From: a virus
Reading direction: 5' to 3' (one strand)
DNA: 29,055 nucleotides
IMG/VR virus record: IMGVR_UViG_3300047994_000026
Span: 1 to 29,055 of that record
The notes under the pieces are model-generated. The model saw nothing but the letters and a program-made list of their open reading frames with translations. It ran no database searches and had not been told where the DNA came from. Both the position numbers and the translations under genes were made by a program. Positions 2,646-28,305 of the stretch are shown here, piece after piece. Every line of letters starts with the position of its first letter. Positions within the stretch are counted from its first letter, which is position 1.

Positions 2646-4306
2646 GTCGCCCCCGTGTTTGCTTGGGCAACGGTGAGCTTACGCGTGATCGCGGCCGGTA
2701 CTTGCTCAGCCACGGCCGCGGGGTCCGCGCTCGCCGAATGAACGTTCATTTCGGTAATCGTCACCGTGGTCGTGTTGCCCGTGGGAGCGGCGGCGGTCGT
2801 CGATCCTGGCGCCCCTGGCGCGGCCGGAGAGGGCTCTGCGCCCGCTTTCGTCGTCACTGACGGGGTAGCGCCCGCGGGCGTTTTGGCGAGTTGTGCGTCG
2901 GTCACGCCAGCCTCTTGCGCGACCATCGCCGACATAATCGCCGGAAGGTCCGCTTCGGTGAACGTCGCGTTCCGGTCTCTGCCCGTGGTCTTTTCCACAC
3001 GGGCGATATATGCCGCGGTTGCGTAGGGGTCTTTCGTCGCGTCGGTTCCCTCGTAGGCGTTGATCAGCTTCGTGATCGTGTTGTCCCCTTTGGCAAACTT
3101 GCGCGCGACGTTATCCATCATGGCTTGAATGCCTTCCTCCATCGTCGCGAAAATGCGGAAGCCTTGGGCGTCGTGCGCCTGGCTCCCAACCGCTTTGACA
3201 TTGCCAGGGTTGTTATTGCGGGAGCTATGCGCGTTCGGCTTCAGCGCCTTTACACGCGTGAACGCGTCAGCGACCGAGAGCCCGGCTTGATCTTCCGTAC
3301 TCGTAAACGCGCTGATCAACGCATCCCCGGCGCGGACGTTGAGATCCCATGCTTTCTTAGCGATTTTCTCGCCCCATTGCGCATACAGATCGCCGATCCC
3401 TAAAATCGAGTTCCCGGCCGCTTGATTCGCGCCGACGAGATCGCCCTTCGCAAGTAGCGTGACGGCGTGCAAGGCGTCTTTCGTCGCAGGCGTCACCTTT
3501 TGTAATATCTGATTGCCGACATTGTCGACCGCTTGACCTACTTCGTCCCATCCTTTCTTAAGGTCTTTGGCGGCATCAGTCGAGGCTTTGGTCGAGGCGT
3601 TCCATTCCTTCGCGGTCTGAAGATCCTTGTCGCGGATGTCCTGCGCTTCGAGCAAGCGGTTTATGACACCTTCGGGAAGCCCGGCGTCTTGGAACATCTT
3701 CGCGCGAACGAATTTATCCATCCCTTCGGTCTTCTTGCCGAGATCGTCGAGCACGGCGCCGAAGTCGCGGAGCTTGCCCTTGTTATCTTCCCACGCGACG
3801 CCTTTCATGTTGAGCAATTGCAACAGAGGCCCGATGTTGCCTTTCGTGCGTTTCGTGGCGATCTCGCCCGATAGCTGCGCGAACGCCTGCGTCGCGTCGG
3901 TCGCTTTGCCGCCCGCTAGCTCGACCGCTTTACCGTAGATATTTAGCGACTCGACTGATTGCCCGATGCGCTCGGCGTTGTACCCTAAAGCCGCCTGCGA
4001 CGCGTTCAGTTCGCCCAAAAACTTGACGCCGCCGCTCAGCGTCTCGAAGCCGAGAAACGCGCCGATCAACGTGCGCCCTAGCGTTGCAATCGAGCCCGTC
4101 GTCGCGTCGAATAGTTTCTTCTGATCCTGCGCGGCTTGCTTTGTGCGGCGCTCGCGCTCGCGCTGCTCGGCGTCGTTCTTCTTGTTGACCGTCTCGCGCT
4201 TTTTCTGCCCCTGCGCGTTCAGATCCTCGACGTCTTTCCATTGCCGCTTGTAGGGCGTGGCGTCGAGGGTAAGCTGTGCGACGAGGGCGTCTACGATCGT
4301 GGGCAT
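2642..4306 (-). CDS. Tail tape measure protein with muramidase-like domain
   Basis: 554 aa. Residues 20-75 are charged and helical (coiled-coil-like), 75-95 hydrophobic (LIGAFLGF), and 100-350 mostly helical, as in tape measures. Residues about 362-470 change character: SSRNNNPGNVKAVG, then FRIFATMEEGIQAMMDN, DNTITKLINAYEG and a final Ala-rich helix. This matches the structural-lysozyme type domain in which NPGN and an F.TMEEG strand recur. Residues 470-540 are Pro/Ala/Thr rich. The protein sets tail length; at about 1.5 A per residue it would give a tail near 80 nm, an estimate only. ATG at 4306 follows immediately on the chaperone -1-frame stop at 4307. Confidence 0.8.
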   Translation of the reverse strand: MPTIVDALVAQLTLDATPYKRQWKDVEDLNAQGQKKRETVNKKNDAEQRERERRTKQAAQDQKKLFDATTGSIATLGRTLIGAFLGFETLSGGVKFLGELNASQAALGYNAERIGQSVESLNIYGKAVELAGGKATDATQAFAQLSGEIATKRTKGNIGPLLQLLNMKGVAWEDNKGKLRDFGAVLDDLGKKTEGMDKFVRAKMFQDAGLPEGVINRLLEAQDIRDKDLQTAKEWNASTKASTDAAKDLKKGWDEVGQAVDNVGNQILQKVTPATKDALHAVTLLAKGDLVGANQAAGNSILGIGDLYAQWGEKIAKKAWDLNVRAGDALISAFTSTEDQAGLSVADAFTRVKALKPNAHSSRNNNPGNVKAVGSQAHDAQGFRIFATMEEGIQAMMDNVARKFAKGDNTITKLINAYEGTDATKDPYATAAYIARVEKTTGRDRNATFTEADLPAIMSAMVAQEAGVTDAQLAKTPAGATPSVTTKAGAEPSPAAPGAPGSTTAAAPTGNTTTVTITEMNVHSASADPAAVAEQVPAAITRKLTVAQANTGAT

Positions 4307-25836: not shown

Positions 25837-26754
25837 CTAGCCGCCGATCTCTTGAATCCATCGTTTCCGAATTTCCTCGCCGCTCATCGTGCCGAGGCGC
25901 TCGCGCAGGGCGTGCGCAGCCGCCATAGAGCCCGCGGCGGCGCCCGCGGCCGCTCCCCTGGCGACAGAGGCGGCATCGTCTCCAAAGGCGCCAGCGGCCC
26001 GTAGGAGGCGCTCTTTCGCCTTGTCGATGTCGTGCGTCAGCACCTCGACGCCGAATTTCGTTTCCTTCATGCCCTTGTACGCCGCCGCGGCCGGGCCTTC
26101 GAGCGTCCGGGTATCCGCGAACACCGTCCGCTGTTCTCCGTGCCCGTGGCATTTGCGGCACGAGGGCACGGGCGGCAGATTCGGCGTGTAGCCATAGCCG
26201 CCCTCGTCGGAAAGCTCTTTAGGCGCCTTCTGCAAGATGGCGGCATCGTCGAGGGCCTTCGCGTACGCTTCCTCGAACTCATCCTCGTCGATCCATTGGT
26301 AGCGGTGATTCCGGCCGTAACAATGGCGGCACGCCTGGTGCTCGTATCGGACGAGATCCTGAATCTCCCGGTAGCCTTCGATCACCGCCATATCATGCGC
26401 CAGGATCGCAGCGGTATCGATCACCACGCGCTGAGCGGATGCCGTCTCTAGCGCTCGAATATACGCGCGAACTTCGGGCCGGTTCGAGACTTGCGACGCC
26501 GCTGTATAGATCGACATTTCCGTAGCGCCGCCTTTCATCCCGGCCACGCTCTCGCGATACGCGCGGGCCTTGTTGCGATAAAGAACATAAAGCTCGGCGA
26601 ACTTCGCATGGTGCGCCTTGCAACGTGCGCGCGTAGCGGCAACGTCGGACAGCGCAACGTCGACCGCGCCCGACCCTGTTCCGCCCACGGTAACGGCGGC
26701 GTCCGATCGGGGCGCGGCGGCGTCACCCTCAGCCTTTTTGACTACGTCGTACAT
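25837..26754 (-). CDS. terS: Terminase small subunit (zinc-containing)
   Basis: 305 aa, ATG. Residues 42-110 (KAHHAKFAELYVLYRNKARAYRESVAG, SIYTAASQVSNRPEVRAYIRALE) fit the HTH DNA-binding part of Terminase_2-type small subunits. Residues 140-153 (QACRHCYGRNHRYQW) and 198-206 (SCRKCHGHG) carry CxxC motifs as in TerS proteins of related phages, likely one zinc site. The C-terminus is a helical Ala/Gly tract (VARGAAAGAAAGSMAAAHALRE). It would recognise the pac/cos site and present DNA to TerL. Encoded over 4 kb from terL, which is unusual. Confidence 0.75.
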   Translation of the reverse strand: MYDVVKKAEGDAAAPRSDAAVTVGGTGSGAVDVALSDVAATRARCKAHHAKFAELYVLYRNKARAYRESVAGMKGGATEMSIYTAASQVSNRPEVRAYIRALETASAQRVVIDTAAILAHDMAVIEGYREIQDLVRYEHQACRHCYGRNHRYQWIDEDEFEEAYAKALDDAAILQKAPKELSDEGGYGYTPNLPPVPSCRKCHGHGEQRTVFADTRTLEGPAAAAYKGMKETKFGVEVLTHDIDKAKERLLRAAGAFGDDAASVARGAAAGAAAGSMAAAHALRERLGTMSGEEIRKRWIQEIGG

Positions 26755-26854
26755 GCGCCTAGCCTACCGTAACCCTACGCCACGGCAACCCCACGGCAAA
26801 ACCCGCTAGAACACACTAGCAGCGAATGGTTCTTATGTGTGTTTCACATAGACG

Positions 26855-26887
26855 TGCAACATGCAAGCTGCAACATGCACCTTGTAA
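26855..26887 (+). repeat. TGCAACATGCA direct repeats and CACCTTG element
   Basis: TGCAACATGCA occurs at 26855-26865 and 26869-26879, period 14, and GCACCTTGTAA follows at 26877-26887. Related words (CGCACCTTGCAA) occur twice after the zinc-finger gene (27465, 27506). Iteron-like spacing suggests protein-binding sites. Confidence 0.6.
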
Positions 26888-26921
26888 ATTATCCCTCTCG
26901 CGCGCGTATCTCTAATGCCAG

Positions 26922-27000
26922 TTTTGTTGAAGTTTTTGTGTGTGATATAAGGTATCATATGGATTGGTATGTTAATGCACACACAAAAACTTCAACAAAA
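26922..27000 (+). repeat. 23-bp perfect inverted repeat
   Basis: Left arm 26922-26944 (TTTTGTTGAAG...GTGTGTG) is the exact reverse complement of right arm 26978-27000, with a 33-base spacer that holds its own palindrome TGATA-TAAGG-TATCA (26943-26957). The right arm ends one base before GGAG (27002-27005), the ribosome site of the 27014 gene. No T-run follows, so it is not a plain terminator. Confidence 0.95.
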
Positions 27001-27013
27001 TGGAGAGTAGAGT

Positions 27014-27388
27014 ATGGAATTTGAAATCATCAGTCGACGCGCAGCGGCCGATAGCGGGAAGAGATTCTTCTACACGGGCAATCCTTGCAAGCGCGGGCAC
27101 CTTGCGCAGCGCTACACCATTAACGGTTGCTGTACCGCTTGCCAGAACATCAGCTTCAAGCCGCGGCAGAATCCAATAACCAAAGACTTAACATCGTTCG
27201 TCCCCTCGAAGCTATGGGCGCCCAAGAGCTACGGCCGCGACGACTTGATTAGGCTGCGCCACTACTTGCAAAGCTGTATCTACGCCCACGCTAAGGCGAA
27301 GGGCGCCCTCACGCCTCAAATGGTCGTCGCTTGGAACATGCACGAGGAACGCAAGCCGCAAGTCGACGACCCGAACGAGGTGCCCTAG
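27014..27388 (+). CDS. Small zinc-finger DNA-binding-like protein
   Basis: 124 aa, ATG with GGAG eight bases upstream. N-terminus EIISRRAAADSGKRFFYTGNPCKRGHLAQRYTINGCCTACQN carries C25-x3-H29 and C39/C40-x2-C43, a zinc motif (YTGNPC.RGH...R.t.ng.C..C) common at the start of phage HNH-type and regulatory proteins. No HNH catalytic His-Asn-His is visible in the remaining 80 residues, so a nuclease is not supported. The rest is helical with KSYGRDDLIRLRHYLQSCIYAHAKAKG. It is flanked on both sides by short repeats and palindromes, so it may bind them. Confidence 0.55.
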   Translation: MEFEIISRRAAADSGKRFFYTGNPCKRGHLAQRYTINGCCTACQNISFKPRQNPITKDLTSFVPSKLWAPKSYGRDDLIRLRHYLQSCIYAHAKAKGALTPQMVVAWNMHEERKPQVDDPNEVP

Positions 27389-27540
27389 CAAGTTGCAAGT
27401 TGCGTCTATCAACATTAAGCGATTGTAATGTTTTACGTACGCTAACGCACCGAAGGCGCAACGCCGCACCTTGCAAGCTCCGTGCACGTTGTACAAGAGG
27501 CATTTCGCACCTTGCAACGTGCAACTAAGGAGAATCTGAC
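27389..27540 (+). promoter_or_regulatory. Repeat-rich leader of the 254-aa gene
   Basis: 152 bases. Contains tandem CAAGTTG (27390-27403), a -35/-10 pair TTGCGT-18-TGTAAT (27400-27429; -10 matches five of six), CGCACCTTGCAA twice (27465, 27506), and a 9-bp inverted repeat TGCACGTTG/CAACGTGCA (27483-27491/27515-27523) ending four bases before AAGGAG. Possible transcript start about 27436. The hairpin next to the ribosome site suggests translational control. Confidence 0.45.
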
Positions 27541-28305
27541 ATGGCTACGAAATCGAAAACTTCTACCCGCAACACCTCGACGCGCGTTCCACCGTCGAGC
27601 CCTTACGCCCTCACCGAAGCACAAGTCGAGGCGCTCGCCCACGAACACGCTAGCGCATCGGGCGTGACCGCAAGAGCGGGGCTCACCTATCTGCGCGTGC
27701 TCGTTTACGACGTTCAGAGTGTGCTCGGTCGACCGGGCGGACCCGGGCGCCCTCGTGGAAAGCCGCCCGCGCCCGATGCGCAGCTAGAGGCGCTCGAACA
27801 CACGAGCGAGCGATTCTATGCGGCTGTGCTGCGAGGCGTCACGGTGCCAGAGATCGCCCCGGACGAGAGCACGCCCATCGACGAGCAACGTCGGCGAGCG
27901 TTCGAGCGAAATCGGCGTTCGGCGTTTGCTCGGACGGCAAAGAGCACGCTCGCAGCCTACGCCCGGCACGGCGGCGACATACGCGCCCTCGATCCGGAAA
28001 CCGTAACGCGAGATCCTCTGAACGCGAGCGTCCGGCAGATGACCGGGCGGAGCGAGGCGGCGTATCAAATCGACCGGCATCGGAACGCCATCATAAGGCT
28101 AGCCACGAGGCACGCCCGCGACGATGTCGAAGCGGCGAGGCAAGAGCTTACCGGGGCAATAGCGGCGCTCTCAGAGGCGCTGGCGGCGATTGATGGCGTG
28201 ACCACGGACGAGCGGCCCGACTTGACGCCCGCCGAGCGCCAAACGATCACGAGCATCCTAGCCGGACGTCCGGCTCACCTTCGGATGGCCGGGGCTCGTA
28301 CATGA
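27541..28305 (+). CDS. Hypothetical 254-aa protein with AT-hook-like segment
   Basis: 254 aa, ATG with AAGGAG eight bases upstream. N-terminus Ser/Thr/Arg rich, then a helical domain with LRVLVYDVQSVLG, followed by GRPGGPGRPRGKPPAPDA (about residues 62-80), an AT-hook-like basic linker (GRPRGKP). The middle is charged and helical (RRRAFERNRRSAFARTAKSTLAAYARHGGDI), the end helical. The hook-like motif and repeat-rich leader hint at DNA binding, but no family is recognised. Stop overlaps the next ATG. Confidence 0.5.
   Translation: MATKSKTSTRNTSTRVPPSSPYALTEAQVEALAHEHASASGVTARAGLTYLRVLVYDVQSVLGRPGGPGRPRGKPPAPDAQLEALEHTSERFYAAVLRGVTVPEIAPDESTPIDEQRRRAFERNRRSAFARTAKSTLAAYARHGGDIRALDPETVTRDPLNASVRQMTGRSEAAYQIDRHRNAIIRLATRHARDDVEAARQELTGAIAALSEALAAIDGVTTDERPDLTPAERQTITSILAGRPAHLRMAGART

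Follow-up and report, generated by a model that had tools for sequence, protein, structure and literature searches.

What is a long and perfect inverted repeat doing in the gap between the gene for a terminase small subunit (terS) and the gene for a zinc-finger protein in a viral genome? The repeat lies near the right end of the window, the term used here for the whole 29,055-nucleotide stretch of DNA that was analysed, which is a virus record in its own right. Its left arm (TTTTGTTGAAGTTTTTGTGTGTG, positions 26922 to 26944 on the plus strand) is complementary at 23 of 23 positions to its right arm (26978 to 27000, minus strand), which is the exact reverse complement. The arms are separated by an AT-rich spacer of 33 nucleotides (26945 to 26977, 27% GC) that places the dyad centre at about 26961, some 53 nucleotides upstream of the zinc-finger start codon. 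Imperfect pairing continues outward (CTCTA with TAGAG, and CCA with TGG) to give an extended dyad at 26910 to 27012. The initial annotation had described the arms and spacer correctly, together with a TGATA...TATCA palindrome in the spacer, whose first TG we place inside the left arm, and a right arm ending one base short of the Shine-Dalgarno-like GGAG of the gene that starts at 27014: position 27001 is a T and GGAG occupies 27002 to 27005 on the plus strand. The AT-rich character that it reported for the flanks in a GC-rich genome is also real, since GC content falls to 46% at 26800 to 27199 compared with 54-68% in the surroundings.

The window repeat is beyond chance. The two arms are the only copies of the arm sequence in the window at up to three mismatches, and no such match arose in any of 100 dinucleotide shuffles. 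The folds of the repeat lie 9 to 10 standard deviations below those of shuffled sequences, both as RNA (-52.8 kcal/mol, z = -9.4) and as DNA (z = -9.8), and no site in the window is comparable: the repeat has the top stem score of 24, the maximum among 433 other 260-nucleotide tiles being 15.5. Several standard identities were rejected. An intrinsic terminator requires a GC-rich stem followed by a T-run; there is no T-run beside the repeat on either strand and a scan for terminator-like sites found none there, in agreement with the earlier view that this is not an ordinary terminator. An insertion element or MITE does not fit flanks (GCCAG and TGGAG) that are not direct repeats, a single copy in the window, and paired arms that are absent from the viral and genome collections searched. 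A protelomerase resolution site needs a palindrome that is continuous through its centre, and the 33-nucleotide spacer lacks full symmetry there.

The genes on either side are divergent. On the left, terS (25837 to 26754, minus strand) is transcribed away from the repeat; it matches phrog_51 (E 7.5e-9), its match to Pfam Terminase_2 is just under the family cut-off, and the genes for TerL, the portal and a DNA transfer protein lie to its left on the same strand. On the right, the plus-strand gene at 27014 to 27388 encodes a 124-amino-acid protein of phrog_1081 (E 2.7e-14). The label 'zinc finger' denotes the residues C25, H29, C40 and C43 (C-x3-H, C-x2-C), which are invariant among relatives, with no named Pfam family behind it. 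The fold model of the protein is weak (mean pLDDT 69) and has no structural match, and it is from the finger that we infer a possible capacity for DNA binding. Comparison with relatives suggests that the stand-alone gene may represent the DNA-binding part of HNH-type enzymes; in L109, L126 and L179, HNH endonucleases carry two or three copies of this finger on their N-terminal side. The next gene of the rightward operon (27541 to 28305) encodes a 254-amino-acid protein, for which relatives (39-43%) occur in L013/L045 and L049. The terS side of the intergenic region carries two direct copies of TGCAACATGCA (26855 to 26879, plus strand), and TGCAAC/TTGCAAG repeats are clustered both there and at 27391 to 27525, between the zinc-finger gene and the gene at 27541. 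Repeats of the TGCAA type are also clustered in the matching intergenic regions of L043 (14 in a single 200-nucleotide bin) and L036 (11); together with the AT-rich spacer they are the observations that bear on a possible replication origin.

The sequence of the arms has no following outside the window. The exact arm was found in one other viral contig only, as a lone AT-rich half whose partner arm is absent and which looks like a chance match, and the paired arms were not found in the viral contigs or genome collections searched; the exact arm was accordingly rejected as a conserved motif. The region has no DNA similarity to cultured phages or plasmids, and single-sequence searches with the zinc-finger protein and the 27541 protein returned no relatives. 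The closest relative by TerL (L010, 33,551 bases, 73%) is missing its copy of the repeat region because its contig stops inside terS, about 40 codons from the C-terminus. A prophage search of 399 genomes from the order of a Sulfuritalea metagenome-assembled genome recovered relatives of terS, none with an adjacent zinc-finger gene, and the literature, searched in full text among open-licence articles, yielded no account of a comparable repeat next to terS.

It is the symmetry, and not the sequence, that recurs. Relatives were reached through homologues of TerL and the portal and their neighbours, and then through an alignment of zinc-finger proteins. Counting the window, 17 distinct viral contigs have terS facing away from a phrog_1081-type zinc-finger gene (CxxxH..CxxC), and at ten of these 17 pairs the 260 nucleotides upstream of the zinc-finger gene contain a long inverted repeat that is significant, with 18-70 paired bases and z from 4.5 to 43; a stem at z >= 4 is absent from the other seven. 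The ten repeats occupy the same place with unrelated sequences, and the arms of different phages do not align. Their paired bases number 70 in L162, 47-50 in L047, 44 in L035, 36 in both L036 and L125, 32 in the window (outer part included), 23 in L049, 22 in L043, 19 in L061 and 18 in L092. Their dyad centres lie about 50-110 nucleotides upstream of the start codon, with the exception of L047 (about -173), and their spacers are AT-rich although the phages are GC-rich. In a contig-wide scan the top inverted repeat was the one at this locus in nine of the 17 contigs (the window, L047, L036, L125, L162, L035, L049, L148 and L078). Repeats were far rarer in the controls: 4/48 zinc-finger genes without an adjacent terS, several of them N-terminal domains of HNH endonucleases (Fisher 7e-5 against 10/17), and 0/18 terS genes without a zinc-finger gene (Fisher 1e-4). 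Both Fisher values are descriptive, the z >= 4 threshold having been set after the first scores were seen.

The terS-only control counts repeats within 260 nucleotides, and strong ones lie slightly further out in two cultured phages. The record of Burkholderia phage BcepC6B begins with an inverted repeat (L193, positions 1 to 98; 47-nucleotide arms, loop of 4, z 12.3) between the DNA polymerase gene and a small gene that precedes terS, while in Acinetobacter phage 4316 a repeat whose arms consist of direct GTGACGTTA repeats (L195, 2140 to 2241, z 8.0) lies upstream of the small gene preceding terS. Other repeats were noticed in passing. L054 has two strong inverted repeats close together (102 to 180 and 224 to 333), near the contig end and some 1.7 kb ahead of a terS-like gene; L185 has an inverted repeat built from ATACCCC units (z about 8) within 260 nucleotides upstream of the zinc-finger gene at 3001, which is short, stands alone and has no terS; and the long inverted repeats that stop exactly at the contig ends of L082 (7139 to 7258), L084 (11149 to 11263) and L097 (9325 to 9371) are in all likelihood artefacts of fold-back during assembly.

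Loci without a long stem are not featureless. Shorter inverted or repeated sites are present in the same interval in L070 (TGAGAACCGTG/CACGGTTCTCA) and L142 (AACCCGTAACCG/CGGTTACGGGTT), and that interval holds seven copies of ATTATGATA in L148 and CCCGCAC repeats in L096. An iteron array, taken as at least three copies of an arm motif, was rejected as the general form, exceeding shuffled sequence only in L148 and marginally in L146. The comparison supports the existence of an element, functional or recurrently regenerated, that is tied to the terS/zinc-finger gene pair. Since distant relatives keep inverted repeats at the same spot in wholly different letters, it also suggests that the symmetry itself, probably as a control site that is read in DNA, either matters there or keeps being regenerated. 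The initial annotation had looked to conservation of the arms in close relatives for a verdict on function, and the outcome is divided: their sequence is not kept but their symmetry is, at ten of the 17 pairs.

Our preferred reading, held tentatively, is that the arms may be paired, phage-specific DNA operators in a divergent terS/zinc-finger control region. The inverted arms would flank an AT-rich stretch from which the zinc-finger operon is transcribed rightward and, perhaps, terS leftward. Both arms would be occupied by one DNA-binding protein that the phage encodes, the simplest candidates being the neighbouring zinc-finger protein, acting on its own gene, and TerS, and a single factor would thereby control both directions. 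Promoters, binding protein and regulatory effect are all putative. The divergent layout expected of an operator pair is common to the 17 contigs, with nearness to promoters presumed, and a promoter would be expected just where the dyad centres lie. The clearest promoter-like sites among the long-repeat loci are those of L035 (TTGATA-N17-TATAAA), L047 (TTGACC-N18-TACTAT, with an extended -10) and L162 (TAGACA-N17-TATTAT); in each the -10 is inside the right arm or beyond it, so that the arms flank or overlap the site. The concentration of repeats at this gene pair (10/17 against 4/48 and 0/18), their rank as the strongest inverted repeat at nine loci, stem mismatches that favour neither RNA strand and the shorter sites at loci without a long stem also speak for operators. 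Against them, the 23-70 matched bases far exceed what a dimeric operator needs, arm sequence differs even between the fairly close relatives L162 and L132, seven pairs are without a z >= 4 stem, and the weak fold model of the zinc-finger protein gives no structural match. Promoter scores at most loci, the window among them, are no better than those of shuffled sequence, the scan having used a generic sigma-70-type matrix for E. coli promoters that may not suit the hosts of these phages. In the window the candidate is an extended -10 at the start of the spacer (TG-A-TATAAG, TGATATAAG, 26943 to 26951, plus strand) with a score of 7.8 against a shuffle mean of 8.0; TTGTTG lies in the left arm 16 nucleotides upstream of this TATAAG. 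The interpretation in the initial annotation, which offered an operator, a translation-control hairpin, a replication origin or a pac/cos-type site, is supported in part.

Three other explanations deserve consideration. The dyad might be read as RNA, the zinc-finger mRNA folding into a leader hairpin that serves as an RNase III processing site or as a translation-control stem at the ribosome-binding site. The right arm comes within about 20 nucleotides of the start codon in the window, L035, L162, L125, L049 and L043, the RNA fold of the window repeat is highly stable (z -9.4), RNase III-type recognition would allow the sequence to diverge, and part of GGAG is predicted to be unpaired when the left arm is present and paired when it is not. 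However, selection for a hairpin in plus-strand RNA should leave mostly G.U mismatches in the stems and selection on the other strand mostly A.C, and the 44 mismatches at the ten loci comprise 8 G.T, 9 A.C and 27 others. Neither RNA strand is favoured, a pattern expected from DNA symmetry or from inverted duplication, and the lack of G.U bias speaks for symmetry in the DNA and not for an RNA hairpin. In addition, L035, L162 and L047 have their highest-scoring promoter-like sites inside or after the right arm (which in L047 stops 82 nucleotides before the start codon), so the left arm would go untranscribed and fall outside the zinc-finger mRNA. Rfam has no family for the region at gathering score, giving only the sub-threshold microRNA matches that are usual for any long hairpin. 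The translation-control hairpin put forward at the outset is weakened by these results, and we regard an RNA role as improbable. A structured leader shared by both divergent transcripts, in the manner of put or nut sites, was rejected as well, the outward arm RNAs being no more structured than shuffled ones.

More plausible than an RNA role, but still a minority possibility, is a DNA structure, cruciform or single-strand hairpins, that acts as a replication origin or pac site and is recognised by shape, with TerS, the zinc-finger protein or the replication machinery as the proposed recognisers. Such a cis element would be a long cruciform-capable repeat, conserved in place and free in sequence, through which the zinc-finger protein or TerS would start packaging or replication, or would switch early and late transcription. 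Symmetry kept at the DNA level without sequence is what this predicts, and the AT-rich spacer, the TGCAA-type repeats alongside (window, L043 and L036), the adjoining terS and the strong repeats upstream of the small pre-terS gene in BcepC6B and Acinetobacter phage 4316, whose terS is related, are all in its favour. It must be set against this that seven of the 17 pairs have no long stem, that most other phages of this terS family (0/18; Parlo, Stean, LASTA, F116) have none near terS, and that no initiator gene was identified beside the repeat. The repeat is also internal to the contig in the window, L043, L049, L061, L092 and L125, which speaks against a fixed genome end and disfavours the cos variant of the pac/cos-type site that had been suggested. 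Doubtful, and a little less probable than a shape-read structure, is a purely mutational origin. A short pre-existing dyad would prompt template switching, by which one arm is rewritten as an inverted copy of the other, and long perfect arms would arise and decay repeatedly; the long stem would then have no function of its own, though its short core could still serve as an operator. That inverted repeats can be generated and homogenised by template switching is established (PMC8794818, PMC8604942). L162 and L132, whose terS sequences are 81% identical, match mainly in the right arm and the outer ends; the left side of L132 keeps the outer part only, and in L162 the two arms are almost perfectly inverse to each other. 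Long arms thus appear to be quickly gained or lost, the right arm being shared by descent, as if the left arm of L162 were a freshly inverted copy or that of L132 had decayed. A similar case for homology between the left arms of L047 and L043, convincing by eye, was rejected, its score not exceeding the shuffle maximum. Mutation alone leaves unexplained why long repeats concentrate at this gene pair and hardly occur elsewhere in the contigs, unless a functional core seeds them.

The operator dyad remains our first choice among these readings, and the data may best be described in two layers: a dyad is maintained at this position by some means, and mutation may then extend its arms and make them more perfect. 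Functional sites are usually detected through sequence conservation. An alignment would not reveal the repeat beside terS, even though divergent phages carry one at the same gene pair. Selection on the symmetry would point to a control site next to the packaging genes that is read as a structure or co-evolves rapidly, and would offer a possible role for the widespread phage zinc-finger family phrog_1081. If mutational homogenisation alone is at work, the locus would be a natural case of template switching rebuilding long palindromes at one place in phage genomes.

Comparison with known systems places the element close to several classes. In switches of the lambda or P2 type, inverted operators occur as pairs in the divergent control region of the phage, and the repeat shares with these systems inverted sites between two divergent operons, close to start sites; it differs in having 18-70 matched bases, an arm sequence that is different in every phage, and terS and a zinc-finger gene as neighbours in place of repressor genes. 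Packaging sites of the pac and cos types lie near terS and have recognition sequences that differ between phages, and the repeat has both the place beside terS and the variation from phage to phage. Long dyads are not, to our knowledge, a recognised feature of pac, and the repeat is unlike cos in lying inside contigs with no fixed end. The early mRNAs of T7-type phages have leader hairpins that are processed by RNase III; here too a long stem immediately precedes a ribosome-binding site, but the stems have no G.U tolerance, and in some relatives the left arm lies upstream of the best promoter-like sites. Long perfect palindromes are found in the mitochondria of Nematomorpha (PMC6649704), and with these and with template-switched repeats the phage element has in common long, near-perfect arms that are more alike within a genome than to those of relatives. 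The published cases concern RNA genes, yeast coding sequence and mitochondrial coding genes (PMC8794818, PMC8604942, PMC6649704), whereas the phage repeat is intergenic and belongs to one gene pair.
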